Made by a program: the position numbers and the translations under genes
Notes under the pieces: generated by a model
What the model saw: only the letters and a program-made list of their open reading frames with translations
Told to the model about the DNA's origin: nothing
Databases searched by the model: none
In this document: one piece after another, positions 10,601-64,000 of the stretch
How positions within the stretch are numbered: the stretch's first letter is position 1
How the letters are laid out: each line of letters begins with the position of its first letter
Assembly (NCBI GenBank): GCA_963680875.1
Contig: OY804585.1
Span: 47,663,085 to 47,727,084 of the forward strand
Reading direction: 5' to 3'
DNA length: 64,000 nucleotides
DNA from: Bathymodiolus brooksi
Lineage: Eukaryota > Mollusca > Bivalvia > Mytilida > Modiolidae

Positions 10601-13600
10601 CGTGTTGTATATTAGCACTGGTCTCGTAATAACACATGTGGTATATTAGCACCGGTTTCGTAATCACTCCTGTTTTATGTTAGCACCGGTCTTGTAAAAA
10701 CCCGTGTGGTATATTAGCACTGGTCTCGTAATCACCCGTGTGCTATATTAGCACCGGTCTCGTTATCACTCCTGTGGTATCTTAGCAGCGGTCTCGTAAT
10801 CATCCGTGTGATATACTAACATCAGTCTCGTAATGACCCGTGTGGTATATTAGCACCGGTCTCGTAATCACCCGTGTGGTATGTTAGCACCGGTCTCGTA
10901 ATCACCCTTGTGGTATCTTAGCACCGGTCTCGTAATGACCAGTGTGGTATATTAGCACCGGTCTAGTAATCACCCGTGTGCTATTTTAGCACCGGTCTCG
11001 TAATCACCCGTATGGTATCTTAGCACAGGTCTCCTAATAAACCGTGTGGTATATTAACACCGGTCTCGTAATCACCCGAGTGGTATCTTAGCATCGCTTT
11101 CGTAATCACCCGTGTGGTATATTAGCACCGGTCTCGTAATCACCCGAGTGATATCTAAGCACCGGTCTCGTAATCACCCGTGTGATAACTTAGCACCGGT
11201 CTCGTAATCACCCGTGTGATAAATTAGCACCGGTCTCGTAATCACCCCTGTGGTATCTTAGCACCGGTCTCGTAATCACACGTGTCGTATCTTAGCACCG
11301 GACTTGTAATCACTCGTGTGGTATATTAGCAACGGACTCGTAATAACACATGTGGTATATTAGCACCGGTCTCGTAAGCACCCCTGTTTTATGTTAGCAC
11401 CGGTCTTGTAATAACCCGTGTGGTATATTAGCACTGGTCTCGTAATCACCCGTGTGCTATATTAGCACCGGTCTCGTTATCACTCCTGTGGTATCTTAGC
11501 ACCGGTCTCGTAATCATTCCTGTATTATCTTAGTACCGGTCTTGTAATCACACGTGTGGTATATTAGCACTGGTCTCGTAATCACCCGTGTGGTATATTA
11601 GCACCGGTCTCGTAATCACTCCTGTGGTATCTTAGCACCGGTCTCGTAATCACCCGTGTGGTATATTAACATCGATCTCGTAATCTCTGGTGTGGTATAT
11701 TGGCATCGGTCTCGTAATCACCCCTGTGGTATTTTAGCTGTGGTCTCATAATCACCCGTGTGGTATATTAGCACCGGTCTCGTAATCACTCCTGTGGTAT
11801 CTTAGCACAGGTCTCGTAATCACCCGTGTGGTATATTAGCACCGGTCTCGTAATCACCCTTGTGGTATCTTAGCACCGGTTTCGTAATGACCAGTGTGGT
11901 ATATTAGCACCGGTCTCGTAATAAACCGTGTGGTATATTAACACCGGTCTCGTAATCACTCCTGTGGTATCTTAGTTCTGGTCTCGTATTCACCCGTGTG
12001 GTATATTTGCACCGGTCTCGTAATCACCCGTGTGGTATCTTAGCACCGGTTTCGTAATCACCCCTGTGGTATCTTAGCACCGATCTCGTAATCACCCGTG
12101 TGGCATTTTAGCACCGGTCTCGTAATCACCCGTGTGGTATATTAGCACCGGTCTCGTAATTACCCCTGTGGTATCTTAGCACCGGTCTCGTAATCTCCCC
12201 TGTGGTATCTTAGCACCGGTCTCGTAATCAACCATGTGGTATCTTAGCAACGGTCTCGTAATCACCCGTGTGGTATATTAGCACCGGTCTCGTAATCACC
12301 CCTGTTGTATCTTAGCACCGGTCTCGTAATCACCCCTGTGGTATCTTAGAACCGGTCTCGTAATCACCCCTGTAGTAACTTAGCACCGGTTTCGTAATCA
12401 TCCGTGTAGTATCTTAGCACCGGTCTCGCAATCACCCGTGTGGTATATTAGCACCGGTCTCGTAATAACCCGTGTGGTATTTTAGCACTGGTCTCGTAAG
12501 ATCCCCTGTGGTATCTTAGCACCGGTCTCGTAATCACCCGAGTGATATCTTAGCACCGGTCTCGTAATCACCCGTGTGATAAATTAGCACCGGTCTCGTA
12601 ATCACCCAGTGGTATCTTAGCACCGGTCTCGTAATCACCCGTGTCGTATCTTAGCACCGGACTCTTAATCACCCGTGTGGTATGTTAGCACCGGTCTCGT
12701 AATAACCCGTGTGGTATATTAGCACCGGCCTCGTAATCACTCCTGTAGTATCTTACCACCAGTCTTGTAATAACCCGTGTGGTATATTAACACCGGTCTC
12801 GTAATCACTCCTGTGGTATCTTAGCACCGGTCTCGTAATCATCCGTGTGATATATTAGCACCGGTCTCGTAATCATCCGTGTGGTATCTTATCACCGGTC
12901 TCGTAATCACCCCTGTGGTATCTTAGCACCGCTCTCGTAATCATCCGTGTGGCATTTTAGCACCGGTCTCGTAATCACCCGTGTGGTATATTAGCACCGG
13001 TCTCGTAATCACCCCTGTGGTATCTTAGCACCAGTCTCGTAATCACCCCTGTGCTAACTTAGCACCGGTCTCGTAATCACCCGTGTGGCATTTTAGCACC
13101 GGTTTCGTAATCACTGGTGTGGTATATTAGCACCGGTCTCGTAATCACCCCTGTAGTATCTTAGCACCGGTCTCGTAATCACCCGTGTAGTATCTTAGCA
13201 CCGATCTCGCAATCACCCCTGTGGTATCTTAGCAGCGGTCTCGTAATCACCCGTGTGGTATTTTAGCACCGGTCTCGTAATCACCCGTGTGGTATATTAG
13301 CACCGGTCTCGTAATCATCCATGTGGTATCTTAGCACCGGTCTCGTAATCACCGGTGTGATATCTTAGCACCGGTCTCGTAATCATCCGTGTGATAAATT
13401 AGCACCGGTCTCGTAATCACCCCTGTGGTATCTTAGCACCGGTCTCGTAATCACCCGTGTCGTATCTTAGCACCGGACTTGTAATCACCCGTGTGGTATA
13501 TTAGCACCGGTCTCGTAACAACCCGTGTGGTATATTAGCACTGGTCTCGTAATCACTCCTGTAGTTTCTTAGCACCGCTCTTGTAATCACCCGTGTGGTA

Positions 13601-15737
13601 TATTAGCACTGGTCTCGTAATCACCCGTGTGGTATATTAACACCGTCTCGTAATTACTCCTGTGGTATGTTAGCACCGGTCTCGTAATAACCCGTGTGGT
13701 ATATTAGCACTGGTCTCGTAATCATTCCTGTAGTATCTTAGCACCGGTCTTCTACTCACCCTTGTGGTATATTAGCACTGGTCTTGTAATCACCCGTGTG
13801 GTATATTAGCACCGTCTCGTCATCACTCCTGTGGCATCTTAGCACCGGTCTCGTAATCATCCGTGTGGTATCTTAGCACGGTCTCGTAATGACCAGTGTG
13901 GTATATTAGCACCGGTTTCGTAATCACCCCCGTGCTATTTTAGCACCGGTCTCGTCATCACCCGTATGGTATCTTAGCACAGGTCTCGTAATAAAGCGTG
14001 TGGTATATTAACACCAGTCTCGTAATCACCCGAGTGGTATCTTAGCATCGGTCTCCTAATCACCCGTGTGGTATATTAGCACCGGTCTCGTAATCACCCG
14101 AGTGGTATCTTAGCATCGGTCTCGTAATCACCACTGTGGTATCTTAGCTCCGGTCTCGTAATCAGCCCTGTGGTATCTTAGCACCGGTCTCGTAATCACC
14201 CGTGTGATATCTTAGCACCGGTTTCGTAATCACCCGTGTGATAAATTAGCACCGGTCTCGTAATCACCCCTGTGGTATCTTAGCACCTGTCTCGTAATCA
14301 CACGTGTCGTATCTTAGCACCGGACTCGTAATCACTCGTGTGGTATATTAACACCGGACTCGTAATAACACATGTGGTATATTAGCACCGGTCTCGTAAT
14401 CACTCCTATTTTATGTTAGCACCGGTCTTGTAATAACCCGTGTGGTATATTAGCACTGGTCTCGTAATCACCCGTGTGCTATATTAGCACCGGTCTCGTT
14501 ATCACTCCTGTGGTATCTTATCACCGGTCTCGTAATAACCCGTGTGGTATATTAGCACCGGTCTCGTAATCATTCCTGTAGTATCTTTGCACCGGTCTTG
14601 TAATCACCCGTGTGGTATATTAGCACCGGTCTCGTAATCACCCGTGTGGTATATTAGCACCGGTCTCGTAATCACTCCTGTGGTATCTTAGCACCGGTCT
14701 CGTAATCACCCGTGTGGTATATTAACATCGGTCTCGTAATCACTGGTGTGGTATATTAGCATCGGTCTCGTAATCACACCTTTGGTATTTTAGCAGTAGT
14801 CTCGTAATCACCCGTGTGGTATATTAGCACCGGTCTCGTAATCACTCTTGTGGTATCTTAGCACCGTCTCGTAATCACCCGTGTGGTATATTAGCACCGG
14901 TCTCGTAATCACCCTTGTGGTATCTTAGCACCGGTCTCGTAATGACGAGTGTGGTATATTAGCACCGGTCTCGTAATCACCCGTATGGTATCTTAGCACC
15001 GGTCTCGTAATCACCCGTGTGGTATATTAGCACCAGTCTCGTAATCAACCCTGTGGTATGTTAGCACCTGTCTCGTAATCACCCGTGTGGTATATTAGCA
15101 CCGGTCTCGTAATCACCCCTGTGGTATATTAGCACCGGTTTCGTAATCACCCGTGTGGTATATTAGCACCGGTCTCGTAATCTCCCCTGTGGTATCTTAG
15201 CACCGGTCTCGTAATCACCCGTGTGATATCTTAGCACCGTTCTCGTAATCACCCGTGTGATAAATTAGCACCGGTCTCGTAATCACCCAGTGGTATCTTA
15301 GCACCGGTCTCGTAATCACCCTTGTGGTATCTTAGCACCGGTCTCGTAATGACGAGTGTGGTATATTAGCACCGGTCTCGTAATCACCCGTATGGTATCT
15401 TAGCACCGGTCTCGTAATCACCCGTGTGGTATATTAGCACCAGTCTCGTAATCACCCCTGTGGTATGTTAGCACCTGTCTCGTAATCACCCGTGTGGTAT
15501 ATTAGCACCGGTCTCGTAATCACCCCTGTGGTATATTAGCACCGGTTTCGTAATCACCCGTGTGGTATATTAGCACCGGTCTCGTAATCTCCCCTGTGGT
15601 ATCTTAGCACCGGTCTCGTAATCACCCGTGTGATATCTTAGCACCGTTCTCGTAATCACCCGTGTGATAAATTAGCACCGGTCTCGTAATCACCCAGTGG
15701 TATCTTAGCACCGGTCTCGTAATCACCCTGTGATATC
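1691..15737. repeat. 34-bp satellite array, about 413 monomers
   Basis: An uninterrupted head-to-tail array with monomer core AGCACCGGTCTCGTAATCAC followed by a CCGTGTGGTATCTT-like half. Variants change CCCGTG to CCCCTG or CTCCTG and TATCTT to TATATT. Almost every monomer holds an ACCGGT palindrome and up to three CpGs, although the surroundings are AT-rich. Stop codons and the non-triplet period exclude coding. Variant monomers recur in register, giving higher-order repeats of about 1,768 bp. The array lies 3' of the CYYR1-like copy A on the minus strand. Confidence 0.98.
14911..15724. repeat. Recent 407-bp duplication of 12 satellite monomers
   Basis: The variant order starting CCCTTGTGG, GACGAGTGTGG, CCCGTATGG at 14911 is repeated almost base for base from 15318. 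This is a fresh tandem duplication at the distal end of the 34-bp array. Confidence 0.8.
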
Positions 15738-17106: not shown

Positions 17107-17158
17107 CTTTTCAATATAGTAAATTAAACATATGAAAGATCATATAAGTATACATTCA

Positions 17159-17336
17159 AATCTGTACATGCAGTCACCTCCATTAAGCAGTCACCTGTAT
17201 TAAAATAACTCCTTTTTCATGTCCTATCATTGAAAATTTCATATGAATTTAACCTCTTTTAAGAAGTCACCTGTCTTACCATTTTGTCTTTGTCCCAAAA
17301 GATGATCTCTTACTACAGGTTTGACTGTGTATGTAT
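17159..17336. mobile_element. Short TIR element (CAGTCAAACC family), degenerate
   Basis: The right end CAGGTTTGACTG is clear and the left end is decayed. The interior has CAGTCACCTGTATTAA, TTTCATATGAATTTAACCTC and repeated GTCACCT motifs. The same element is at 24699-24928, 52745-52905 and, greatly expanded, at 26403-34747. It lies in the last intron of copy A. Confidence 0.6.
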
Positions 17337-24319: not shown

Positions 24320-25440
24320 ACGTAAGTGCGGTTCTCTTATCTGTTGCCCCGGGATACTTGGATACAAACAGAATTGAGATGACGTTTGACTTGAGGTCTA
24401 ATATCCCTAGCCCGTTTTCGAAAAATCTAAAAGTTATTGTATATATAGAACAATAAAATGCATAACACATGTAAGCTTATGATAATCTAGAATTGTTGAA
24501 CGTGTGACCACCATATGATTGAACATTACTTCCGACATGAAAATATACAGTAGCTTACCTGACGGAATAAATTCTAATAGCCCTCTTCTTAGTTGTTGTT
24601 TGTTCTATATGTACGAGATTTTGCAGCTCTATTAACATTTTACAAATTGAAGTGACATTAGTTTATAAATACAAAATTACTTCTATGTAATAGTATACAG
24701 TCAAACCTGCCCATGAGGTCACCTCTATTAAACAGTCACCTCTATCAAACAGTCACCTCTATTAAACAGTCACCTCTATTAAACAGTCACCTGTTTTAAA
24801 AGGCCACCTTTTTCTGGTCCTGTCAGAAAATTTCATATGAATTGAACCTCTTTTAAGAGGGCACCTGTGATAAAAGACCACTTTGTCTTTCTCTCAATTG
24901 TGACCTCTTAAAACAGGTTTGACTATTATTTAGTTTCAGTTTGTATTTTCTGTTATTTATTTACTATATACCGATGAACTGTAAATTTGTACCTGGACGT
25001 TTTCAGTTTTTTTACTTTGTATTTTGTGTTTTGGTTTTACAATATGATTAACTCTGACTAATTAACTGTATTATAATTTATATCACTAATTTCCTAAAGG
25101 AGAAAATTAAAGAATACATATTTGAGATAAAAAGAAAATTGGCTCATTATTACCTACCTTGTATTATAATACACAAAATCACAAATTTCCAGTCCACCAT
25201 ATTTAATACGTAGTTTGAGATATCTGATAAGTATTTCAAAATAATAAAGTATATATAATATAAATAAATTATATTGATTAAATAACACCTTATCTAAAAT
25301 GTGCGTCTACAAAATAAAGGAATTTACCTATTGCTATTATACACGTTTATTTAAAACTCACGACGCACACTGAAACATTTTTTGTTTCTGGTAGATATAT
25401 TTAAAATAGTTTAATTTATGTTGGTATGGATGGATGAATG
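24320..25440. repeat. Segmental duplication block 3, first copy
   Basis: From GTGCGGTTCT and GTTGCCCCGGGATACTTGG through the TIR element to GTTGGTATGGATGGATGA it is collinear with 62400-64000. The second copy carries a LINE insertion at 63221-63738 that is absent here. No gene was recognised. Confidence 0.85.
24699..24928. mobile_element. TIR element, CAGTCAAACC family, with 21-bp internal repeats
   Basis: Termini are TACAGTCAAACCTG and CAGGTTTGACTA. The interior begins with four to five tandem copies of a unit containing AACAGTCACCTCTATT. This small version shows how an internal tandem repeat can arise in the family. The duplicate at 62846-62985 has fewer repeats. Confidence 0.75.
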
Positions 25441-25559: not shown

Positions 25560-26400
25560 TATCTACAAAGTTTAATAGTGAGAGATTTACTAGATGATTG
25601 TAATAGTTTATGAAGCTTGTGGCGATTTGGCCATGAACAATAATGTGGTTATTATATATCTATGTGCTGGACATACTAAAACAAAGTGATATTTGTCCTC
25701 TAAAGCATTCATATTATATGATAAACAAATTCTATTTTCTCTTGCAACATTTTGGTATTTACCAGTTTCAACATTCAGTTTAAGTGTATCACTACGGAGT
25801 TTAGTTAAAAGTTGTACAATAATGTGTAAATCAAGGTATTTTTCAACACAAAATTATAATTCATACTCTTTGTAAATGTTAAGTTTGTGGCATTCTTCTC
25901 ATCCTGAAAACCACGACTGTAAACATTAGTCTCTTATGTATCTTAACAGATTCAAGTGAAATAGTACCTGTCGAGCATAATTTTTTGGATTCCGTTTTAG
26001 CAATATTACAAAGTTCAAGCCCTTTTCTTCTTTTATAGTTAAATTTTGCCTGTCTCTTCACTTTATTGAAATAGTTTCTAACTGAAACACATAGGTGTCT
26101 ATTTGCCTCAGTCGAGTATCGTGAAAATAAGTTTCTTACATTATGGAATTCCGCAAAGCATTTGTACATTTATTGTCAAACCACCCATTTTGTGGACTTT
26201 GGAGTGTTATGTCATCTCGAATCAAAAGAGAATGTCCAAAAAACTTGAATGCGCTGTTGTAGGTTGACCGAGTTAACTCGCTTACCGAATTATGTACGTT
26301 CGTTTCGCGGGTTAGATTATTCATACGTTTTAAAGGTATATTCTGTTGAGATTGTAAAATTTGAAAATATTGTTCGTTATGAGTGGCGTCCCATTTGATA
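25560..26400 (-). pseudogene. LINE fragment: linker and C-terminal domain (3' half)
   Basis: Minus-strand frames at 26136-26324 and 25879-26169 read NGWFDNKC..., a frame step, then FAEFHNVRNLFSRYSTEANR and VKRQAKFNYKRRKG. This is typical of the segment between the endonuclease and the reverse transcriptase of non-LTR elements. 25560-25870 then encodes LKLNVETGKYQNV and the stretch RENRICLSYNMNALEDKYHF, the C-terminal Cys/His-type region. The RT catalytic core is missing, so an internal deletion has occurred. The 5' half of this element continues at 34750-35225, beyond the inserted satellite element. Confidence 0.78.
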
Positions 26401-26402
26401 TA

Positions 26403-29400
26403 CAGTCAAACCAGCATTAAAGGGCACCTCTATATAACAAATTACAGTCTATAAAGGGCACCTCTATATCACAAATTAGTCTATAAAGGGCACCTCTATA
26501 TCACAAATTAGTCTATAAAGGGCACCTCAATATCACAAATTAGTCTATAAAGGGCACCTCTATATAGCAAATTACAGTCTATAAAGGGCACCTCTATATA
26601 ACAAATTACAGTCTATAAAGGACACCTCTATATAACAAATTACAGTCTATAAAGGGCACCTCTATATCACAAATTAGTCTATAAAGGGCACCTCTATATC
26701 ACAAATTAGTCTATAAAGGGCACCTCAATATCACAAATTAGTCTATAAAGGGCACCTCTATATAACAAATTACAGTCTATAAAGGGCACCTCTATATAAC
26801 AAATTACAGTCTATAAAGGGCACCTCTATATCACAAATTAGTCTATAAAGGGCACCTCTATATCACAAATTAGTCTATAAAGGGCACCTCAATATCACAA
26901 ATTAGTCTATAAAGGGCACCTCTATATAACAAATTACAGTCTATAAAGGGCACCTCTATATAACAAATTACAGTCTATAAAGGGCACCTCTATATCACAA
27001 ATTAGTCTATAAAGGGCACCTCTATATCACAAATTAGTCTATAAAGGGCACCTCAATATCACAAATTAGTCTATAAAGGGCACCTCTATATAACAAATTA
27101 CAGTCTATAAAGGGCACCTCTATATAACAAATTACAGTCTATAAAGGGCACCTCTATATCACAAATTAGTCTATAAAGGGCACCTCTATATCACAAATTA
27201 GTCTATAAAGGGCACCTCAATATCACAAATTAGTCTATAAAGGGCACCTCTATATAACAAATTACAGTCTATAAAGGGCACCTCTATTTAACAAATTACA
27301 GTCTATAAAGGGCACCTCTATATCACAAATTAGTCTATAAAGGGCACCTCTATATCACAAATTAGTCTATAAAGGGCACCTCAATATCACAAATTAGTCT
27401 ATAAAGGGCACCTCTATATAACAAATTACAGTCTATAAAGGGCACCTCTATATAACAAATTACAGTCTATAAAGGGCACCTCTATATCACAAATTAGTCT
27501 ATAAAGGGCACCTCTATATCACAAATTAGTCTATAAAGGGCACCTCAATATCACAAATTAGTCTATAAAGGGCACCTCTATATAACAAATTACAGTCTAT
27601 AAAGGGCACCTCTATATAACAAATTACATTCTATAAAGGGCACCTCTATATAACAAATTACAGTCAATAAAGGGCACCTCTATATAACAAATTACAGTCT
27701 ATAAAGGGCACCTCTATATAACAAATTACAGTCTATAAAGGGCACCTCTATATTACAAATTAGTCTATAAAGGGCACCTCTATATAACAAATTACAGTCT
27801 ATAAAGGGCACCTCTATATAACAAATTACAGTCTATAAAGGGCACCTCTATATTACAAATTAGTCTATAAAGGGCACCTCTATATAACAAATTACAGTCT
27901 ATAAAGGGCACCTCAATATCACAAATTAGTCTATAAAGGGCACCTCTATATAACAAATTACAGTCTATAAAGGGCACCTCTATATAACAAATTACATTCT
28001 ATAAAGGGCACCTCTATATAACAAATTACAGTCTATAAAGGGCACCTCTATATTACAAATTAGTCTATAAAGGGCACCTCTATATAACAAATTACAGTCT
28101 ATAAAGGGCACCTCAATATCACAAATTAGTCTATAAATGGCACCTCTATATAACAAATTACATTCTATAAAAGGCACCTCTATATAACAAATTACAGTCT
28201 ATAAAGGGCACCTCTATATAACAAATTACAGTCTATAAAGGGCACCTCTATATAACAAATTACAGTCTATAAAGGGCACCTCTATATTACAAATTAGTCT
28301 ATAAAGGGCACCTCTTTATAACAAATTACAGTCTATAAAGGGCACCTCAATATCACAAATTAGTCTATAAATGGCACCTCTATATAACAAATTACATTCT
28401 ATAAAAGGCACCTCTATATAACAAATTACAGTCTATAAAGGGCACCTCTATATAACAAATTACAGTCTATAAAGGGCACCTCTATATAACAAATTACAGT
28501 CTATAAAGGGCACCTCTATATTACAAATTAGTCTATAAAGGGCACCTCTATATAGCAAATTACAGTCTATAAAGGGCACCTCTATATAACAAATTACAGT
28601 CTATAAAGGACACCTCTATATAACAAATTACAGTCTATAAAGGGCACCTCTATATCACAAATTAGTCTATAAAGGGCACCTCTATATAACAAATTACAGT
28701 CTATAAAGGGCACCTCAATATCACAAATTAGTCTATAAAGGGCACCTCTATATAACAAATTACAGTCTATAAAGGGCACCTCTATATAACAAATTACAGT
28801 CTATAAAGGGCACCTCTATATCACAAATTAGTCTATAAAGGGCACCTCTATATCACAAATTAGTCTATAAAGGGCACCTCAATATCACAAATTAGTCTAT
28901 AAAGGGCACCTCTATATAACAAATTACAGTCTATAAAGGGCACCTCTATATATCAAATTACAGTCTATAAAGGGCACCTCTATATCACAAATTAGTCTAT
29001 AAAGGGCACCTCTATATCACAAATTAGTCTATAAAGGGCACCTCAATATCACAAATTAGTCTATAAAGGGCACCTCTATATAACAAATTATAGTCTATAA
29101 AGGGCACCTCTATATAACAAATTACAGTCTATAAAGGGCACCCCTATATCACAAATTAGTCTATAAAGGGCACCTCTATATCACAAATTAGTCTATAAAG
29201 GGCACCTCAATATCACAAATTAGTCTATAAAGGGCACCTCTATATAACAAATTACAGTCTATAAAGGGCACCTCTATATAACAAATTACAGTCTATAAAG
29301 GGCACCTCTATATCACAAATTAGTCTATAAAGGGCACCTCTATATCACAAATTAGTCTATAAAGGGCACCTCAATATCACAAATTAGTCTATAAAGGGCA

Positions 29401-32400
29401 CATCTATATAACAAATTACAGTCTATAAAGGGCACCTCTATATGACAAATTACAGTCTATAAAGGGCACCTCTATATCACAAATTAGTCTATAAAGGGCA
29501 CCTCTATATCACAAATTAGTCTATAAAGGGCACCTCAATATCACAAATTAGTCTATAAAGGGCACCTCTATATAACAAATTACAGTCTATAAAGGGCACC
29601 TCTATATAACAAATTACATTCTATAAAGGGCACCTCTATATAACAAATTACAGTCAATAAAGGGCACCTCTATATAACAAATTACAGTCTATAAAGGGCA
29701 CCTCTATGTAACAAATTAGTCTATAAAGGGCACCTCTATATAACAAATTACAGTCTATAAAGGGCACCTCAATATCACAAATTAGTCTATAAATGGCACC
29801 TCTATATAACAAATTACATTCTATAAAAGGCACCTCTATATAACAAATTACAGTCTATAAAGGGCACCTCTATATTACAAATTACAGTCTATAAAGGGCA
29901 CCTCTATATAACAAATTACAGTCTATAAAGGGCACCTCTATATTACAAATTAGTCTATAAAGGGCACCTCTATATAGCAAATTACAGTCTATAAAGGGCA
30001 CCTCTATATAACAAATTACAGTCTATAAAGGACACCTCTATATAACAAATTGCAGTCTATAAAGGGCACCTCTATATCACAAATTAGTCTATAAAGGGCA
30101 CCTCTATATCACAAATTAGTCTATAAAGGGCACCTCAATATCACAAATTAGTCTATAAAGGGCACCTCTATAAAACAAATTACAGTCTATAAAGGGCACC
30201 TCTATATAACAAATTACAGTCTATAAAGGGCACCTCTATATCACAAATTAGTCTATAAAGGGCACCTCTATATCACAAATTAGTCTATAAAGGGCACCTC
30301 AATATCACAAATTATTCTATAAAGGGCACCTCTATATAACAAATTACAGTCTATAAAGGGCACCTCTATATAACAAATTACAGTCTATAAAGGGCACCTC
30401 TATATCACAAATTAGTCTATAAAGGGCACCTCTATATCACAAATTAGTCTATAAAGGGCACCTCAATATCACAAATTAGTCTATAAAGGGCACCTCTATA
30501 TAACAAATTACAGTCTATAAAGGGCACCTCTATATAACAAATTACAGTCTATAAAGGGCACCTCTATATCACAAATTAGTCTATAAAGGGCACCTCTATA
30601 TCACATATTAGTCTATAAAGGGCACCTCAATATCACAAATTAGTCTATAAAGGGCACCTCTATATAACAAATTACAGTCTATAAAGGGCACCTCTATATA
30701 ACAAATTACAGTCTATAAAGGGCACCTCTATATCACAAATTAGTCTATAAAGGGCACCTCTATATCACAAATTAGTCTATAAAGGGCACCTCAATATCAC
30801 AAATTAGTCTATAAAGGGCACCTCTATATAACAAATTACAGTCTATAAAGGGCACCTCTATATAACAAATTACATTCTATAAAGGGCACCTTTATATAAC
30901 AAATTACAGTCAATAAAGGGCACCTCTATATAACAAATTACAGTCTATAAAGGGCACCTCTATATAACAAATTACAGTCTATAAAGGGCACCTCTATATT
31001 ACAAATTAGTCTATAAAGGGCACCTCTATATAACAAATTACAGTCTATAAAGGGCACCTCTATATAACAAATTACAGTCTATAAAGGGCACCTCTATATA
31101 ACAAATTACAGTCTATAAAGGGCACCTCTAAATTACAAATTAGTCTATAAAGGGCACCTCTATATAACAAATTACAGTCTATAAAGGGCACCTCAATATC
31201 ACAAATTAGTCTATAAAGGGCACCTCTATATAACAAATTACAGTCTATAAAGGGCACCTCTATATAACAAATTACATTCTATAAAGGGCACCTCTATATA
31301 ACAAATTACAGTCTATAAAGGGCACCTCTATATTACAAATTAGTCTATAAAGGGCACCTCTATATAACAAATTACAGTCTATAAAGGGCACCTCAATATC
31401 ACAAATTAGTCTATAAATGGCACCTCTATATAACAAATTACATTCTATAAAAGGCACCTCTATATAACAAATTACAGTCTATAAAGGGCACCTCTATATA
31501 ACAAATTACAGTCTATAAAGGGCACCTCTATATAACAAATTACAGTCTATAAAGGGCACCTCTATATAGCAAATTACAGTCTATAAAGGGCACCTCTATA
31601 TAACAAATTACAGTCTATAAAGGACACCTCTATATAACAAATTACAGTCTATAAAGGGCACCTCTATATCACAAATTAGTCTATAAAGGGCACCTCTATA
31701 TCACAAATTAGTCTATAAAGGGCACCTCAATATCACAAATTAGTCTATAAAGGGCACCTCTATATAACAAATTACAGTCTATAAAGGGCACCTCTATATA
31801 ACAAATTACAGTCTATAAAGGGCACCTCTATATCACAAATTAGTCTATAAAGGGCACCTCTATATCACAAATTAGTCTATAAAGGGCACCTCAATATCAC
31901 AAATTAGTCTATAAAGGGCACCTCTATATAACAAATTACAGTCTATAAAGGGCACCTCTATATATCAAATTACAGTCTATAAAGGGCACCTCTATATCAC
32001 AAATTAGTCTATAAAGGGCACCTCTATATCACAAATTAGTCTATAAAGGGCACCTCAATATCACAAATTAGTCTATAAAGGGCACCTCTATATAACAAAT
32101 TATAGTCTATAAAGGGCACCTCTATATAACAAATTACAGTCTATAAAGGGCACCCCTATATCACAAATTAGTCTATAAAGGGCACCTCTATATCACAAAT
32201 TAGTCTATAAAGGGCACCTCAATATCACAAATTAGTCTATAAAGGGCACCTCTATATAACAAATTACAGTCTATAAAGGGCACCTCTATATAACAAATTA
32301 CAGTCTATAAAGGGCACCTCTATATCACAAATTAGTCTATAAAGGGCACCTCTATATCACAAATTAGTCTATAAAGGGCACCTCAATATCACAAATTAGT

Positions 32401-34747
32401 CTATAAAGGGCACATCTATATAACAAATTACAGTCTATAAAGGGCACCTCTATATGACAAATTACAGTCTATAAAGGGCACCTCTATATCACAAATTAGT
32501 CTATAAAGGGCACCTCTATATCACAAATTAGTCTATAAAGGGCACCTCAATATCACAAATTAGTCTATAAAGGGCACCTCTATATAACAAATTACAGTCT
32601 ATAAAGGGCACCTCTATATAACAAATTACATTCTATAAAGGGCACCTCTATATAACAAATTACAGTCAATAAAGGGCACCTCTATATAACAAATTACAGT
32701 CTATAAAGGGCACCTCTATGTAACAAATTAGTCTATAAAGGGCACCTCTATATAACAAATTACAGTCTATAAAGGGCACCTCAATATCACAAATTAGTCT
32801 ATAAATGGCACCTCTATATAACAAATTACATTCTATAAAAGGCACCTCTATATAACAAATTACAGTCTATAAAGGGCACCTCTATATAACAAATTACAGT
32901 CTATAAAGGGCACCTCTATATAACAAATTACAGTCTATAAAGGGCACCTCTATATTACAAATTAGTCTATAAAGGGCACCTCTATATAGCAAATTACAGT
33001 CTATAAAGGGCACCTCTATATAACAAATTACAGTCTATAAAGGACACCTCTATATAACAAATTGCAGTCTATAAAGGGCACCTCTATATCACAAATTAGT
33101 CTATAAAGGGCACCTCTATATCACAAATTAGTCTATAAAGGGCACCTCAATATCACAAATTAGTCTATAAAGGGCACCTCTATAAAACAAATTACAGTCT
33201 ATAAAGGGCACCTCTATATAACAAATTACAGTCTATAAAGGGCACCTCTATATCACAAATTAGTCTATAAAGGGCACCTCTATATCACAAATTAGTCTAT
33301 AAAGGGCACCTCAATATCACAAATTAGTCTATAAAGGGCACCTCTATATAACAAATTACAGTCTATAAAGGGCACCTCTATATAACAAATTACAGTCTAT
33401 AAAGGGCACCTCTATATCACAAATTAGTCTATAAAGGGCACCTCTATATCACAAATTAGTCTATAAAGGGCACCTCAATATCACAAATTAGTCTATAAAG
33501 GGCACCTCTATATAACAAATTACAGTCTATAAAGGGCACCTCTATATAACAAATTACAGTCTATAAAGGGCACCTCTATATCACAAATTAGTCTATAAAG
33601 GGCACCTCTATATCACATATTAGTCTATAAAGGGCACCTCAATATCACAAATTAGTCTATAAAGGGCACCTCTATATAACAAATTACAGTCTATAAAGGG
33701 CACCTCTATATAACAAATTACAGTCTATAAAGGGCACCTCTATATCACAAATTAGTCTATAAAGGGCACCTCTATATCACAAATTAGTCTATAAAGGGCA
33801 CCTCAATATCACAAATTAGTCTATAAAGGGCACCTCTATATAACAAATTACAGTCTATAAAGGGCACCTCTATATAACAAATTACATTCTATAAAGGGCA
33901 CCTCTATATAACAAATTACAGTCAATAAAGGGCACCTCTATATAACAAATTACAGTCTATAAAGGGCACCTCTATATAACAAATTACAGTCTATAAAGGG
34001 CACCTCTATATTACAAATTAGTCTATAAAGGGCACCTCTATATAACAAATTACAGTCTATAAAGGGCACCTCTATATAACAAATTACAGTCTATAAAGGG
34101 CACCTCTATATAACAAATTACAGTCTATAAAGGGCACCTCTATATTACAAATTAGTCTATAAAGGGCACCTCTATATAACAAATTACAGTCTATAAAGGG
34201 CACCTCAATATCACAAATTAGTCTATAAAGGGCACCTCTATATAACAAATTACAGTCTATAAAGGGCACCTCTATATAACAAATTACATTCTATAAAGGG
34301 CACCTCTATATAACAAATTACAGTCTATAAAGGGCACCTCTATATTACAAATTAGTCTATAAAGGGCACCTCTATATAACAAATTACAGTCTATAAAGGG
34401 CACCTCAATATCACAAATTAGTCTATAAATGGCACCTCTATATAACAAATTACATTCTATAAAAGGCACCTCTATATAACAAATTACAGTCTATAAAGGG
34501 CACCTCTATATAACAAATTACAGTCTATAAAGGGCACCTCTATATAACAAATTACAGTCTATAAAGGGCACCTCTATATTACAAATTAGTCTATAAAGGG
34601 CACCTCTATATAACAAATTACAGTCTATAAAGGGTAGTCTCATTTTTCACACTATGAATAGTGCTATTATTGTAACCTCTATATAGCTGCTCATAACGAT
34701 CATATTTTCAGGTTCCCTTTAGTGATCTATATATACAGGTTTGACTG
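26403..34747. mobile_element. 8.3-kb TIR element whose interior is a 32/34-bp satellite
   Basis: The termini CAGTCAAACC (26403-26412) and GGTTTGACTG (34738-34747) are perfect inverted repeats flanked by TA on both sides, as for Tc1/mariner-type MITEs. Almost all of the interior (about 26415-34635) is roughly 250 tandem copies of a 32- or 34-bp unit containing TATAAAGGGCACCTCTATAT. The short right flank (34636-34735) is unique. Removing the element and one TA rejoins the interrupted LINE frame exactly. Related small elements are at 17159, 24699, 52745 and 62846. No transposase is present. Confidence 0.88.
26415..34635. repeat. 32/34-bp satellite array with higher-order repeats
   Basis: Two monomer lengths alternate: ...AACAAATTACAGTCTATAAA (34 bp) and ...CACAAATTAGTCTATAAA (32 bp). 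A frequent order is 34-34-32-32-32 (about 164 bp), with the last unit reading CACCTCAATATC. Much longer blocks are also duplicated: marker variants at 27792 and 27992 recur at 31072 and 31272 (+3,280) and at 34084 and 34284 (+3,012). Where 34- and 32-bp units alternate strictly, 66 bp gives a 22-codon minus-strand frame; these frames are not genes. Confidence 0.95.
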
Positions 34748-34749
34748 TA

Positions 34750-35225
34750 TTTGTCAATTCTGGGAAAACCTTTTACCGAACGAATGACTGAAAAGTTTAA
34801 CTCAAAGAAAATAGGCATATGATCTTAAAACTTGTTCATTTGAAGAACTTGGATGTCACTTATTAATTGGAAATAACTAGCAGATACCATAAAGTAATCA
34901 TTTACATGTCTCCCTTTATTTGTACAAAAAGTAAAATTACAATCTCTGTCGTGGCAAAGTCTACCATTGGCTACAGTTAGACCTGTATTAAAGCACATCT
35001 CTGGTAGCTTACGACCAACGGCATTCCCAGTTTTATTCATGGAACGTCTATTAGAGATAATGGGATTATCAACGTGTTCTACACATTCTTTATACCGATC
35101 TAGATCGTCATTTAACAAAAAGTCAATTAATTCAAATCTCCACAATACACTCTCATAAATAATCAACGGCACAGACATCCTAAATGATATTACATATTTT
35201 GGACTAAATGTATTGTTGTCCATAC
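34750..35225 (-). pseudogene. LINE fragment: endonuclease domain (5' half)
   Basis: The minus-strand frame 34825-35223 (132 codons) contains YESVLWRFELIDFLLNDDLD, then a RRSMNKTGNAVGRKL stretch, CFNTGLTVANGRL and NFTFCTNKGRHVNDY, resembling the C-terminal half of a LINE apurinic endonuclease. Downstream, after a frame change and an in-frame TAA, DHMPIFFEL follows, the remains of the SDH motif. It joins in frame with 26400 leftwards once the TIR element is removed. Confidence 0.75.
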
Positions 35226-35500
35226 CCTACATACAACTAGATAAACACCGCCACTTTTTATTGAAATTCTTGCAACAATCTAGGAAAGTGAGCGGTTATG
35301 TTTTTTGTGTTAGGGGTGTCCAATTTTCCTCTTTATGCGTTTTACTCTTTGATTTTGGAACTCTTCCGAAAGTTTAATATGTTATTTATTCATTTTACCT
35401 AAATCTCGTACTATTCCATCCAATGGTCCTCCGCCCGATTGTCCTATCTCCCCTCTCATTTCTGTTGAATACTATAATATATTGTTGAACGCGGACATAT
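35226..35500. other. No gene seen
   Basis: Could be more of the LINE 5' region, but I recognise no coding motif. Confidence 0.3.
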
Positions 35501-40168: not shown

Positions 40169-40485
40169 GTCTGTTTTGTGTTGAAAGTGGCGTTGGTCAC
40201 CATAACCCTTACCCTAAGACTTTTGCCTTATCAATATTATGACATTAGAAATAATGAGCATGTCAAAATCACTTACACAAGCGAACAAATAACTTTACAC
40301 TTTTCTTGATTTTTTTTAAAAGAACGATTAGTTCTTACACCTGATTTGGCCTATACAATTCAAAAATAATATCTTAATCAATCGTTAACTATGTATAGTT
40401 GTTACCAAGAAAAACAAACAAAAACCTGTAAACTTCCTGGTAGAAAATATATGTAATGACAATAATACAATGAAAAATTAAAACA

Positions 40486-41612
40486 ATACTACACTGTAGG
40501 AACAATACTACACTGTAGGAACATTACTACACTGTAGGAACAATACTACACTGTAGGAACAATACTACACTGTAGGAACAAATACTACACTGTAGGAACA
40601 ATACTACACTGTAGGAACAATACTACACTGTAGAAACAATACTACACTGTAGGAACAATACTACACTGTAGAAACAATACTACACTGTAGGAACAATACT
40701 ACACTGTAGGAACAATACTACACTGTAGGAACAATACTACACTGTAGGAACAATACTACACTGTAGGAACAATACTACACTGTAGGAACAATACTACATT
40801 GTAGGAACAAATACTACCCTGTAGGAACAATACTACACTGTAGGAACAATACTACACTGTAGGAACAATACTACACTGTAGGAACAATACTACACTGTAG
40901 GAACAATACTACATTGTAGGAACAAATACTACACTGTAGGAACAATACTACACTGTAGAAACAATACTACACTGTAGGAACAATACTACATTGTAGGAAC
41001 AATACTACACTGTAGGAACAATACTACACTGTAGGAACAATACTACACTGTAGGAACAATACTACACTGTAGGAACAATACTACACTGTAGGAACAATAC
41101 TACACTGTAGGAACAATACTACACTGTAGGAACATTACTACACTGTAGGAACAAATACTACCCTGTAGGAACAATACTACACTGTAGGAACAATACTACA
41201 CTGTAGGAACAATACTACACTGTAGGAACAATACTACACTGTAGGAACAATACTACATTGTAGGAACAAATACTACACTGTAGGAACAATACTACACTGT
41301 AGGAACAATACTACACTGTAGAAACAATACTACACTGTAGGAACAATACTACATTGTAGGAACAATACTACACTGTAGGAACAATACTACACTGTAGGAA
41401 CAATACTACACTGTAGGAACAATACTACACTGTAGGAACAATACTACATTGTAGGAACAAATACTACACTGTAGGAACAATACTACACTGTAGGAACAAT
41501 ACTACACTGTAGAAACAATACTACACTGTAGGAACAATACTACATTGTAGGAACAATACTACACTGTAGGAACAATACTACGCTGTAAGAACAATACTAC
41601 ACTGTAAGAACA
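40486..41612. repeat. 19-bp minisatellite, about 59 copies
   Basis: The unit is TACTACACTGTAGGAACAA. Variants with CTACATTGTAGGAACAAATA recur at intervals, showing block-wise amplification (two blocks of about 190-290 bp are repeated). The duplicate at 59166-59475 has far fewer copies and is interrupted by another repeat. Confidence 0.95.
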
Positions 41613-41919
41613 ATTCCAAAATCCTATCGATAACACGAAGAAACCGAGGAAAAGTGTTACCCTAGAACCACATACATACACTTCAATAAAAAGTAGCGTA
41701 TTCATCCGCCCAGTAGTCAGTGTTTCACCACTTACATGGTTTATTATATATACCGTATTTCTTCTAATAAACGCCCCGGGGGCGTTGACATTTTCCAAAA
41801 GGGGGGCGTTAATTAGAGAAAATATTTCCAAGTTGACTTCGTGAAACAGACAATAGAATTTTACACGTGTGTCGGTTTTCTCATTGTTATCTATAAATAG
41901 CACAATCCAGTTGATGTAA

Positions 41920-42135
41920 ATTCTTATAAACGTGTTTGATAATCCAGGACAGTGTGTTGGGCATGTTCCGATAGAGTTTAGCAAGATTTTTAGTTATTTT
42001 TTAAGACGGGGAGGAAACATAAACGTGACTGTTACGGGAGATAAATTTTTTAACATTGGACTTGAAGTACCGTGCACATATACATTTTCTGGAAGTAATA
42101 CCGATATAGAGAAATTGAAAACTTTGTTAAAATAA
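41920..42135 (+). CDS. Short open frame upstream of the transposase (HIRAN-like?)
   Basis: The frame is open from 41920, with no in-frame ATG, to a TAA at 42133-42135 that overlaps the transposase ATG by one base (TAATG). The product would contain VFDNPGQCVGHVPIEFSKIF, then YFLRRGGNINVTVTG and GLEVPCTYTFSG. The pattern VGHVP...FLRRGG...VTG...GLEVPC...F.G recalls, from memory, a HIRAN-like domain of invertebrate transposon-associated proteins. The N-terminal half of such a domain is missing here. It may be a terminal exon, a translated uORF, or a decayed gene carried within the transposon. Expression is unproven. Confidence 0.4.
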   Translation: MLINVFDNPGQCVGHVPIEFSKIFSYFLRRGGNINVTVTGDKFFNIGLEVPCTYTFSGSNTDIEKLKTLLK

Positions 42136-43502
42136 TGGAGACTTCAGCAAAAAAGACTAAATACACGTTTTCGTTCAAACTTAAAGTTATTCAGTTTGCA
42201 GAGCAAAAAGGAAAACATGCGGCAGCAAAACTATTTAAAATTGACAGAAAACGCGTGCGAGAATGGTGTAAAAATAAATCTGCAATAGAAAATGGACAAA
42301 AGAGTCAGAAAAGATTACCAGGTAGGGGTAAACCTGTCCGCTATAAGGAAATTGACAATAAACTGATGGCCTGGTTTCGTGAAAAACGAGATGCTGGTGT
42401 TCGTGTTACAGGAAAGGCCATGCGAGCGGAGGCATTAAGACTACATAAAGAAAACGGCAGTCAGTCGTTTAAAGCATCACTTGGCTGGTTTGACAAATTC
42501 AAAAAACGACATAAAATTACATTCAGAAGGTCAACACATGTCGCACAACATTCAACATCCATAGTAGACGATCGTGTCGACAAATTTTTTAATTTTGTTA
42601 TCCGGATGCGTAGATTTCGCGGATATGAAACCAGTGAAATAGGCAATATGGATGAGACCCCAGTGTGGTTCGAAATGCCAGGAAAGTCAACATTAGCTGA
42701 ACGTGGGGAAAAGGAGGTGCGTGTGGCAACAACGGGCCATGAAAAAGAAAGACTTACTGTTACGCTCGCTGCTCATGCTGACGGAACAAAACTACCTCCT
42801 CTTGTTCACCTACCTGGTGTCCGTCCACTACCAAAAAATGAAGTTCCGAACGGTGTGGTAGTGTCTATGTGTGGATCGGGAAAAAAGTCTTGGGCAAACG
42901 AAGAAAGCATTAACTTTTGGTTGAAAAGAATTTGGGGTTTAAATAACCAAAAACGCCGTTTTCTCGTTTGGGATGCCTTTAGGGCACATATAACTCCATC
43001 CATCAAGGAGTCTGTCCGAATGAAATACAACTCGGATCTGTGTGTTATTCCCGGAGGATGCACATCAAAATTACAGCCGACTGATGTTTCATGGAATAAA
43101 CCGTTTAAGTCGCAATTATCAGAAATGTATGATGAATGGCTATTTTCTGGACCTGTGGAGAAAACCAAAGGTGGCAACAGACGTGCTCCTTCTAAATCTT
43201 TAATTCTGAAATGGATCAAACAATCCTGGGATGCAATTTATCCTGACATAATACGTAAATCATTTAAAAAATGTGGAATCTCGAATGCCTTGGACGGCAG
43301 TGAAGATAATTTATTTCAAAATGAAGGCGACGATGATCCATTTGAAGGATTCGACGAAGAGGACGTCAGAATGGATGAGGAAATTTTAGCAAACGTTTCG
43401 TCATTCAACGAACAAAACACCGAAATCAGCGATGGTGAAAACGAAATAAATTCAGAATTGGAAGAGGAAAATGAAACCGATTATGACAGTGACGGACATT
43501 AA
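42135..43502 (+). CDS. pogo-type transposase, 455 aa, intact
   Basis: This is a DDE/D transposase that would cut and reinsert the surrounding element at TA targets. Domains by eye: residues about 10-50 a psq/CENP-B-like helix-turn-helix (FSFKLKVIQFAEQKG...FKIDRKRVREWCKN); 70-130 a second DNA-binding HTH of Tc5/CENP-B type (...MAWFREKRDAGVRVTGKAMR...GWFDKFKKRH); 165-370 the catalytic domain. Acidic residues are D173 in GNMDETPVWF, D280 in LVWDAFRAHIT and D317 in SKLQPTDVSWNKPFK, giving D-x36-D. Residues 385-455 are a strongly acidic tail. The length fits pogo/Tigger transposases. The ATG is the first in frame. No stop or frameshift is present, so it may still be functional; a domesticated gene is less likely because TIRs flank it. 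Confidence 0.92.
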   Translation: METSAKKTKYTFSFKLKVIQFAEQKGKHAAAKLFKIDRKRVREWCKNKSAIENGQKSQKRLPGRGKPVRYKEIDNKLMAWFREKRDAGVRVTGKAMRAEALRLHKENGSQSFKASLGWFDKFKKRHKITFRRSTHVAQHSTSIVDDRVDKFFNFVIRMRRFRGYETSEIGNMDETPVWFEMPGKSTLAERGEKEVRVATTGHEKERLTVTLAAHADGTKLPPLVHLPGVRPLPKNEVPNGVVVSMCGSGKKSWANEESINFWLKRIWGLNNQKRRFLVWDAFRAHITPSIKESVRMKYNSDLCVIPGGCTSKLQPTDVSWNKPFKSQLSEMYDEWLFSGPVEKTKGGNRRAPSKSLILKWIKQSWDAIYPDIIRKSFKKCGISNALDGSEDNLFQNEGDDDPFEGFDEEDVRMDEEILANVSSFNEQNTEISDGENEINSELEEENETDYDSDGH

Positions 43503-43889
43503 CGATGTATAGCTTTTACCAGTTGTATAAAATCTTTATGAAAAAACTTAGTTTTAGTTTAGAATAGTTACCGTAGTTCATTGATAGATAGATTTAGAGT
43601 GTAGATTATTGATTTATTTTCCGATGTACATGTAGCATGTGTAGCAAAGTGCATAATTAGCGGAACTACCGGTATTTTTGGAACTCATTGTTCGATTATT
43701 TTACAATTTTTATTAAAGCTCAAATCGATTACTGTATAATTCTAATTAAAGTTCTAAGATTACTGGTCTTAATTTATTTTTATGGAAATGGGGGCGTTTA
43801 TTAGAAGTAAAAATGTTCTGTTGGCAGAATTAAGTGAGGGGGCGTTTATTAGAAGGGGGGCGTTAATTAGAAGAATTACATTTCTAAAT

Positions 43890-52691: not shown

Positions 52692-52744
52692 CTTTTCAAT
52701 ATCGTAAATTAAACATATGAAAGATCATATAAGTATACATTCAA

Positions 52745-52905
52745 GTCTGTACATGCAGTCACCTGTATTAAAAAGTCACCTTTTTCATGTCCTATCATTG
52801 AACATTTCATATGAATTTAACCTCTTTTAAGAGGTCACATGTCTTACCATTTTGTCTTTGTCCCAAAAGGTGACCGCTTACCACAGGATTGACTGTGTAT
52901 GTATA
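52745..52905. mobile_element. Short TIR element (CAGTCAAACC family), degenerate
   Basis: Duplicate of 17159-17336: CAGTCACCTGTATTAAAAAG and the end CAGGATTGACTGTG. The central CACC repeat unit is one fewer. Confidence 0.6.
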
Positions 52906-55900: not shown

Positions 55901-56220
55901 ATCACGTTTTCCCAGTCTGTTTCAATTATTTTGTTTTTCATAAGTAAATAGTCGCCCCTCTTATAATCCCAGATGGTACGCTGAAAGGTTTTCCTGTTAC
56001 AATAGCCACAGTCTATACTGACATAAGTGCCGTCATGGTCACTTATTTCCCTGTCAATAGGTATTGTATCACAATCAATAACCGGTATTGAATCGGTAAT
56101 TAAAATTGGGTCCAATAGAGACGTGTTGCCTGATCGTGCGTCGAAATGTGTAGGTTTATTTATTATATTAACTAATCCGTTGATGACAAGAATGTCATTA
56201 ACGTTATGAGGAAGATTATG
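52971..56220 (-). mobile_element. 5'-truncated non-LTR retrotransposon (LINE), 3.25 kb
   Basis: Inserted into the last intron of copy B: the flanks AAAAGAAATG and TTTTGGTTAAAAGTAAACAT are contiguous at about 17391-17425 in copy A. The 3' end (left, minus strand) reads ACAATAAAATAAGTTTAAAT, like the 49041-49488 element, so both belong to one family. No target duplication is obvious. The endonuclease N-terminus is absent. Confidence 0.9.
53505..56220 (-). pseudogene. LINE ORF2 (endonuclease C-term, reverse transcriptase, C-terminal domain), broken
   Basis: Minus-strand order: endonuclease remnant with GNTSLLDPILITDS and EISDHDGTYV (SDH); an RT with FKNGDKSLPSNYRPISLLS, FADISKAFDTVW, VPQGSVLDPLMFLILINDI (canonical LGPL altered to LDPL) and LFADDTS (catalytic DD); then a C-terminal domain with CSCGYKNEGSEHFLLYC and YIKDTRRFA. 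Two breaks are visible: a frameshift in the 54829-54869 overlap and an in-frame TAG at 53973-53975, after which the same frame continues to 53505. The apparent start MFTFNQK (56241-56221) is host intron sequence read through. Jockey/CR1-like by motif style; the clade is not certain. Confidence 0.92.
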
Positions 56221-56693
56221 CTTTTGGTTAAAAGTAAACATACGAAGTACGAAATACTTTATAAAAGAAAGCTCAATAATTGAACATTAAGGTTGACAAA
56301 GATGTGATTTCGAAGCATTGATCAGTGTTTTGGCACTGAGATGGTATATAATATATATATTTAGCAATTTAAAGTTCTAAATTAGTAGTAAAAGGAAAGC
56401 TCATCTCGCGGAGGACATTAGCAAATTTTGGCTATTCTTATTAGTCATGTTTTGTCATTTAAGTTGCACTGTGTATTCTATATGTTTCTTTTCTTCTTTT
56501 TGATAGTCATTTTAGACTTTATGACATCACAGGATAAGCACAACATATGTATAATATTTTAAGCAAATGTTGAATTGGTTCCAGCATGGCGGACATATAT
56601 CTTAATGACATCATTTTAGTGGGGGTTATGGATATTAGATCTAGTTGAATATCATTTATTATAATCTACACTAATATTAGTATTGAATTATAC

Positions 56694-59165: not shown

Positions 59166-59835
59166 TATTCTACACTAGGAACAATACTACACTGTAGGAA
59201 CAATACTACACTGTAGGAACAATACTACTCTGTAGGAACAATTAAAACAATACTACACTGTAGGAACAATACTACACTGTAGGAACAATACTACACTGTA
59301 GGAACAATACTACACTGTAGGAACAATATTACACTGTAGGAACAATACTACACTGTAGGAACAATACTACATTGTAGGAACAATACTACACTGTAGGAAC
59401 AATACTACACTGTAGGAACAATACTACACTGTAGGAACAATACTACACTGTCGGAACAATACTACATTGTAGGAAATAAGGGTAATAACAAAATTACCGA
59501 ACTCCGAACAATCTTACAAAGGGAAAGTCAAAACTCATAATTATATAAACAGACAAAATCAGTCAACAACCGGAAAACTGTGAAAACCGTAATGACCCTG
59601 ACTTGGTACAGGCATTTCTAAAGAAATGGTGGGTTGAATCAGATTTTAAGGCGCCAAACCTCCCGCTCTCATTACGGTTCAAAGGTTCAGGCTGTCACTG
59701 TAACAGTATTTAAATACAGGAACAAAATAGGTAAAATAGTTGTCAAAGCAGTACCATATTCGGTGACGTAAATGTCAAATTCTACACTGTAGGAACAATA
59801 CTACACTGTAGGAACAATATTACAATGTAGGAACA
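59166..59835. repeat. 19-bp minisatellite, about 18 copies, interrupted
   Basis: TACTACACTGTAGGAACAA units at 59166-59475 and again at 59782-59835. 59476-59780 is a foreign dispersed repeat with ACCGAACTCCGAACAATC, CCTGACTTGGTACAGGCATT and GGTGGGTTGAATCAGATTTT, which resembles a common mussel repeat from memory. Confidence 0.85.
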
Positions 59836-62399: not shown

Positions 62400-64000
62400 A
62401 CAAACATGAAGTGCGGTTCTGTTATCTGTTGCCCCGGGATACTTGGATACAAACAAAATTGAAAAGACGTATGACTTGAGGTCTAATTAATATCTATAGT
62501 CCGTTCTCAAAAACTCTAAATGTTATTGTATATATAGAACAATAAAATGTATAATGCATGTAAGCTTATAATAATCCAGAAACGTTTACCTAATCACTAG
62601 ATTTTATTTATACCTACGTTTTAATAGATACCTTTCCAGACTATGGTTGTACATGTCACCCATATTCTTGAACATTCCTTGCAATGTATAAATATACAGT
62701 TACTTGGCTTACGAGATAAATTGTAATAACTTTTTGTAGTTGGTTTGTCAGTATGCATGATATTTGGGAGCTCTCTTGATATTTCACAAATTGAAGTGAC
62801 ATTAGTTTATAAATAGAAAATTATTTCTATATAATAGTATAGAGACAAACCTGCCCATGGGGTCAAATCTATTAAACAGTCACCTGTTTTAAAAGGTAAC
62901 CTTTTTCTGGTCCTATCATAGAAAATTTCATATGATTTGAATCTATTTTAAGAGGGCACCTGTGATAAAAGACCACACTGTATTATTTAATTTCAGCTTG
63001 TATTTTCTGTTATTTATTTACTATATACAGATGAACTGTAAATTTCTTTCTCGACGTTTTCGTGTTTTTTTCTATATTGTGGGTTTCTGGTTATACAATA
63101 TGATTAACTCTGATTAACTGTATTATAATATATGTCAATAATTACCTAAAGGAGAAAATTAAAGAATACAAATTTGAGACACACAAATTAGCTCAATGTT
63201 TTTTACCTTGTATTATAATGAGTCTCCTAAATGTCATTTATACAGATATATTTTTGACAATAATGTTTTACAATTTTATTTTGATCGTCCACTTAATTAT
63301 ATTTATCAGCCATATATTTGTAAAATGCGTATATCAGCACATAATCTTAATATTGAAACTGGAAGATTCTATAATTTAGATCGTCATGAAAGAGTGTGTA
63401 GTATGTGTAACTTAAATGTTGTTGAAGATTAATACCATTTTATTCTGCAATGTGAAAAATATATTGATGTAAGAAGAAGATATCATAAGAAATATTATTG
63501 GCAAATGCCGTCATGTTTTAAATTAGTACAATTACTGTATCTTGGTAAATAGTTGTTACTAGCTGAAAAAATTCGCAACGCTTAATTTAATTTCATTTCG
63601 TATTATTGCTTTACATATATTATCATGCTCCGCTGTTATTATCATAATTGTATATGCATTTTCAATGATGTATTGAATAATTGTATGTTATATGTATATT
63701 TCTATGAGCAGTATTGCTTTTGAATAAAAGAATTTAATAATACAGAAAATCACAAATTTCCAGTCCACCATATTTAAATACGTAATTTGATATATCTCAT
63801 AAGTATATCAAAATAATAAAATATAGGACATATATTATATTGATTAAATAACACCTTATCTAAAATGTGCATCTACAAAAATAAAAGAATTTACCTATTG
63901 CTATTACACACCTTTATTTAAAACTCACGACGCACAAGACATTTATTTTTCTGGTAGATATATTTAAAATAGTTTAATTTATGTTGGTATGGATGGATGA
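62400..64000. repeat. Segmental duplication block 3, second copy (runs off the window)
   Basis: Collinear with 24320-25440. Includes a shortened CAGTCAAACC-family element (62846-62985) and a LINE insertion (63221-63738). The alignment still holds at the window end. Confidence 0.85.
63221..63738 (+). pseudogene. 5'-truncated LINE, C-terminal domain only
   Basis: Inserted after GTATTATAAT; ATAAT is repeated at the right end and the copy at 25155-25175 is empty. The frame reads SPKCHLYRYIFDNN, MRISAHNLNIETGRFYNLDR, then ERVCSMCNLNVVED, a TAA (63430-63432), and continues in frame with YHFILQCEKYIDVRRRYHKK. This is the Cys/His C-terminal region of a non-LTR element, the same class as the fragment at 25560-25870. 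It ends with GAATAAAAGAATTT. Confidence 0.85.

Follow-up and report, generated by a model that had tools for sequence, protein, structure and literature searches.

Within a 64,000-bp stretch of the Bathymodiolus brooksi genome (C14:47663085-47727084; hereafter the window, with positions counted from its first base), a satellite array of 34- and 32-bp units lies inside a non-coding terminal inverted repeat (TIR) transposon of the miniature inverted-repeat transposable element (MITE) type. The window array very probably grew in place, as blocks, after a genomic segment carrying a short insertion of this MITE had been duplicated. The analysis covered the structure of the element, its interrupted target, the other copies of the same insertion and the dispersed members of the family in the organism's genome, which comprises 2.0 Gb in 136 contigs.

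The complete element (26403..34747, plus strand) is 8,345 bp long and its inverted ends are exact over 10 bp, with CAGTCAAACC at 26403..26412 (plus strand) and again at 34738..34747 (minus strand). TA dinucleotides adjoin both ends (26401..26402 and 34748..34749), the junctions reading GATATA/CAGTC on the left and GACTG/TATTTG on the right. The array of 248 units occupies 26416..34625 (plus strand) and is followed by a right arm (34635..34747, plus strand) that is common to dispersed family members. Seven open reading frames (ORFs) of at least 60 amino acids (aa), each of 61 aa, with GTG starts and located entirely within the array, were detected; the ORF scan of the element revealed none longer than 61 aa. 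Short inverted ends, a target site duplication, lack of coding capacity, dispersed multicopy occurrence and variable unit number together characterize the element as a tandem-repeat-containing MITE, and the TA target site duplication, seen here and at independent copies, is that of the Tc1/mariner-pogo group. A foldback element of the Tetris/Galileo type was rejected, as the exact ends span only 10 bp, the array lies on one side only and there are no long repeat-holding arms. An earlier annotation made from the letters of the window (the sequence-only reading) had described a TIR transposon with perfect 10-bp ends and flanking TAs, whose interior is almost wholly a 32/34-bp array; both statements agree with these data, the array making up 8,210 of the 8,345 bp.

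The element interrupts the frame of a long interspersed nuclear element (LINE). Both halves of this frame are on the minus strand, the upstream one at 34748..35226 (34828-35226 is open) and the downstream one at 26139..26402, as judged from the junction and from relatives. Removal of the element plus one TA restores ...GFPRIDKYIKWDATHNE... in frame on the minus strand. A 195-residue query across the rejoined site was used to search the genome, and 13 of the 150 scored matches span the junction without net gain or loss (43-47% identity); 12 of these start at residue 1 or 2 and reach residue 192, and one starts at residue 10. The relative at C14:69492533-69493108, for example, has 576 bp for exactly 192 residues. 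Its in-frame extension reaches a reverse transcriptase domain (RVT_1, E 4.4e-13), and the LINE label for the split frame therefore stands. Uninterrupted relatives do join at the insertion point, and the proposal of the sequence-only reading that the flanks are two halves of one LINE frame is thus upheld. The interrupted copy is dead, with stops further out in frame, and no Pfam domain was found in the split piece itself. Another LINE with a reverse transcriptase domain, split over two frames, is present in the window at 53976-56286 (minus strand) and has no detectable kinship to the split piece; its section 54832-56286 was rejected as a close relative, giving no significant match (E 0.31).

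A search with the right flank of the element revealed nine matches in the genome, all in C14, of which seven begin at the first base beside the right end and two at base 153. DNA fetched from C14 places the window inside a tandemly duplicated segment, with copies approximately 20-41 kb apart, and the same LINE site is split in nine segment copies, as read at the left junction of all nine and at the right junction of seven. The arrays at this site contain 248 units in the window, 56 in copy 47943, 43 in 47922, 33 in 47812, 28 in 47728, 22 in each of 47783 and 47880, six in 47759 and five in 47849. In 47783 and 47880 the right end of the element has been replaced by other DNA. The replacement is the same in this pair (L052 and C14:47783144-47784345), as is the array length of 22 units. 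Copy 47759 carries another sequence in its left end, the reverse complement of which, by eye, is related to the replaced right end of the 22-unit pair.

The order of growth can be followed by means of a marker unit containing CTCAATATCAC. This unit is present once in 47849 and once in 47759, is missing from the six other copies, and occurs 38 times in the window. In 47849 it is preceded by two identical 32-bp units, and this trio of units recurs 23 times in the window, where it forms the core of a 164-bp block. Flank trees, which cover seven copies for the right flank and six for the left, unite the window, 47849 and 47759 in one group on both sides (100/100). In the left tree 47849 is nearest to the window (100/99), the left flank identities to the window being 98.1% for 47849 and 94.5% for 47759. 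In the right flank 47849 shares 98.4% identity with 47759 versus 97.6% with the window, and the order within these three copies is open in the right tree.

The window array was parsed into 137 units of 34 bp and 111 units of 32 bp, which represent 26 distinct unit types in order and form nested structural levels. The recurring 164-bp block is composed of five units (three of 32 bp and two of 34 bp). Larger internal blocks, about 1 kb long, show 98.8-99.5% identity among the rows listed, and the largest internal duplication, with a lag of 3,012 bp, links 28698..31567 to 31710..34579 (both plus strand) with 99.86% identity over 2,870 bp; it is most likely the latest growth step. Over the 12 longest block duplications listed, identity ranges from 98.8 to 99.9%, as calculated from strict local alignments, which favour the best-matching stretches. 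Since these blocks are more alike than the flanks of the window and 47849 (98.1% left, 97.6% right), they are, at face value, younger than the split of the two segment copies, which places at least the later part of the growth within the window copy. Early growth in place is suggested by the marker unit together with parsimony. The long head-to-tail arrangement, homogenization and higher-order repeats are those of a satellite, and at 8.2 kb this is the longest array of the 34/32-bp unit measured, the spans measured for several others stopping short of one or both ends.

Array length is inversely related to the mean difference between units, with a Spearman coefficient of -0.99 for the seven arrays of at least 20 units and -0.69 for all nine. 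The arrays of 47783 and 47880 are the most mixed of the nine and are 97.6% identical along their length. In this mixed pair the length was conserved, in contrast to that of the uniform array.

The best-supported history begins with a short non-autonomous DNA transposon, of about 178 bp with one 34-bp unit in the form most often sampled, which inserted at a TA in the LINE. The host segment would then have been tandemly duplicated to at least nine copies, and the unit arrays would have varied in length independently from copy to copy. Within the window copy, a short array like the five units of its sister would have been amplified as a block, which would have created the 164-bp higher-order repeat; amplification of kilobase blocks would have followed, the last event being the 3,012-bp duplication. 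Replication slippage would probably account for changes by single units, and unequal sister-chromatid exchange or break-induced replication for those that followed after the array had become long and uniform. The later growth would require no role of the transposon ends, which mark the starting place.

Several observations weigh against growth in this order. Copy 47849 is closest to the window in the left flank but closer to 47759 in the right flank, a conflict that suggests exchange between the copies, and gene conversion or exchange is likely to have affected them. Over longer non-array DNA the window and 47849 are 92.0-96.5% identical in six pieces (95.9% in the longest, of 10.2 kb), and the near flanks may therefore be too young in appearance. 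Strict alignments also choose the most alike stretches, homogenization can make old blocks seem young, and a looser block pairing at about 3.28 kb gives only 97.45% identity. The nine copies are related, so the points relating length to homogeneity are not independent. A 164-bp period was reported for 47728 as well, which has no marker unit, and five-unit periodicity may thus arise repeatedly. Shrinkage of both sisters from a longer ancestral array is conceivable, given the 22-56 units of the six other copies; this is disfavoured because each sister would have had to keep exactly one marker unit. Finally, with one assembly of one individual, part of the length could be an assembly error.

Members of the same family were identified elsewhere with a right-arm search, in which the best 40 of 828 candidates were scored. 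Seven of these places belong to the C14 cluster (the window and six at 88-97%) and 33 are dispersed (80-83%). Twenty-three of the dispersed places were cut out as loci L008-L030, a sample that is ranked by similarity to the window arm and hence not random. Their flanks all differ, except for one duplicated pair (L026/L027). In 15 of the 23 loci, counting both members of this pair, a single unit lies between a recognizable left end (at most two mismatches) and the right arm, for a total of 162-179 bp. A single unit next to a damaged left end is present at L029; L017 contains two units, L012 ten and L023 25, while L014 has at least 33 units in view, its left end not being reached; in L008, L010 and L030 the left end is absent or scrambled. 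Unit numbers of 1, 2, 10, 25 and at least 33 were thus found among dispersed copies, and of 5 to 248 among the paralogues.

Three 164-bp blocks were used as the query in an array search (best 40 of 368 candidates scored). Among the matches listed, at least 22 array sites of the 34/32-bp unit, counted by hand, are located outside the C14 cluster on eleven chromosomes, with spans of up to about 4.5 kb; several extend past the matched span. The edges of six of these arrays were read. The left end is present in five of the six (four exact with TA; that of C6:113.29 is altered in its first bases) and the right arm in four (three exact with TA, and one base-changed with TG), whereas the remaining three edges are still within the array. 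Coincidence of the ends was therefore rejected: as the sequence-only reading had implied, the same termini bound independent arrays. At C4:113760806-113791261 several arrays of the same unit lie within 30 kb, with matches spaced by 2,378 bp; array growth may have occurred here at a further duplicated locus. A different portion of the transposon is also found in tandem, as the last 45 bp of the right arm are repeated at least eight times at C2:74991615-74991974, next to one of the 33 dispersed right-arm places.

Four small relatives in the window (at 17159, 24699, 52745 and 62846) had been presented by the sequence-only reading as a series from MITE to satellite. They were rejected as stages of the 26403-34747 element, since they represent two insertions of a cousin family with 17-bp units, each present in several segment copies. 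Site A carries five units in the window (24698..24925, plus strand; left end exact, right end with one mismatch) and, in the next segment copy, two units in a decayed element (62842..62980, plus strand; from a reading of the sequence). It was found in seven segment copies, by eye with five units in the window and in 47847 and two or three in the other five. Site B has two units in the window (17153..17327, plus strand; right end exact, left end changed) and one in the more decayed element of the next copy (52738..52895, plus strand; likewise read from sequence). The window copy of site B is longer by exactly 17 bp than five other copies, which have one unit, and provides a parallel that supports independent change of unit number. 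The true series consists of the nine paralogues of one insertion and the dispersed one-unit copies. The earlier interpretation thus holds for the TIR element in the LINE frame, for the array within it and for the birth of that array in a MITE, but not for the argument drawn from the four relatives. It had made no mention of the 164-bp and kilobase levels of organization, and the segmental duplication was beyond its reach.

The right arms of the cousin and 34-bp families are homologous, with an alignment score of 44.5 versus a maximum of 23 in 500 shuffles. When the doubled 34-bp unit was aligned to the run of 17-bp units, none of 500 shuffles reached the score, and the 34-bp unit is consistent with a diverged pair of 17-bp units. 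The likeness of the unit to the right arm was equalled by one of 500 shuffles for the family sequence and by 18 of 500 for the window's own arm; a tie between unit and arm is therefore no more than suggested.

Other explanations of the window array were considered. The element may already have contained many units early on, or have arrived with them, while the other copies shrank; the 22-56 units of the six paralogues outside the trio of sisters fit this view, and long arrays with intact ends at other sites suggest that long forms might be mobile. Such a history is improbable, given that each sister has the marker unit once and the window has it 38 times, and that the longest internal blocks (98.8-99.9% identical) are more alike than the segment-copy flanks. 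Even less probable is an extra length created by the assembly. The assembly is a single one, its largest block duplication is 99.86% identical, and the same segment copy contains a second array, unrelated to the first, whose length likewise far exceeds that of its counterparts (14,028 bp versus 878, 210 and 208 bp); the nested structural levels, the 26 unit types in order and the absence of any N within the 200 kb fetched argue for a genuine array.

The least probable of these explanations is that the satellite came first, a pre-existing array having obtained ends resembling those of a transposon, either by chance or because MITEs inserted into it. Capture of a pre-existing tandem repeat has been proposed for miDNA4 of Xenopus, according to a review (PMC12628747), and the window unit is only weakly like its own right arm. 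On the other hand, 15 of the 23 dispersed copies consist of one unit with recognizable left and right ends, the family unit resembles the family arm (one of 500 shuffles as high), and the LINE flanks rejoin exactly. Growth in place after segment duplication is thus the explanation we favour.

The second array mentioned above, with a 34-bp unit (TTAGCACCGGTCTCGTAATCACCCGTGTGGTATA), occupies 1709-15736 of the window. In addition to the three counterparts of known length, two more segment copies have 174 and 208 bp between the flank matches. Two unrelated arrays are therefore both hugely longer in the same segment copy, a coincidence that may be due to chance, as the copies are so few. Two arrays of a 19-bp unit (AACAATACTACACTGTAGG) were identified at 40482-41614 and 59176-59475. 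They share with the second 34-bp array a right-flank stretch around CAGTAGTCAGTG, which is hairpin-like in some copies; as a guess, their carrier is perhaps Helitron-like.

The core ACCTSTATATAA occurs twice, as inverted copies, in the right arm of the family (the arm sequence was set by eye) and in 120 of the 248 window units; outside the element, none was found elsewhere in the window. The window's own decayed right arm contains no exact core, which counts against reading it as a binding site. A rather improbable candidate role for the repeated unit would be that of the transposon's own transposase-binding motif: the arrays could first have grown as extra sites aided transposition, and the core could have seeded the series from 17 bp to 34 bp, 164 bp and kilobase blocks. 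CENP-B is a domesticated relative of pogo-type transposases. On this view the array may even now be a target for a pogo-type transposase or for a domesticated relative of this kind.

DDE_1 places were listed for the best 150 of 554 candidates in the genome, as positions only, and no partner transposase emerged at this level. A pogo-like transposon at 41755-43879 of the window has a 467-codon open frame encoding a DDE_1 domain (E 3.4e-16) and Tc5-type and Brinker-type DNA-binding domains. It was rejected as the autonomous partner of the MITE, since its ends differ. Three copies of its own terminal core are present near its right end, which makes the repetition of a terminal motif unremarkable in elements of this type.

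Satellite-seeding MITEs that carry tandem repeats internally are already known as a kind, and the present case is an unusually clean one. The Xenopus element miDNA4 (Scalvenzi and Pollet; via the reviews PMC12628747 and PMC9659126) is likewise a MITE of the Tc1/mariner class with an internal monomer, single or in an array of variable number, and is a proposed source of a satellite. Compared by description only, the case presented here differs in that growth can be followed across paralogues of a single insertion and includes higher-order structure. Xstir/Xmix of Xenopus also show the passage from MITE-internal sequence to tandem array, but involve a different element and a proposed stem-loop mechanism (PMC12628747, PMC9659126). 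In Tetris/TIR-220 of Drosophila virilis, tandem repeats of the DNA transposon grew into long arrays within the element, with up to 66 copies reported (PMC4079207); Tetris is a foldback element with the repeats in its inverted arms, whereas the exact ends here span 10 bp, with the array to one side of the right arm. In bivalves, tandem-repeat MITEs and pearl elements (DTC84 of Donax, CvA) represent mollusc MITEs with internal satellite-like units, and again by description only they differ in having arrays of up to six monomers, versus up to 248 here (PMC5139131). A literature search found no earlier case in which array growth was followed across replicate copies of a single insertion by means of a marker unit, which is weak evidence of absence.

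The origin of satellites is usually inferred from their end products. Here, replicate arrays with a known insertion site, flank trees and a marker unit are available, so that the order, direction and relative timing of growth can for the most part be deduced from the sequence itself, and a higher-order repeat can be traced back to its beginnings in a five-unit array. Two further MITE insertions, with unit counts of their own, are present in the same segment copies, which makes rates of change comparable between them.

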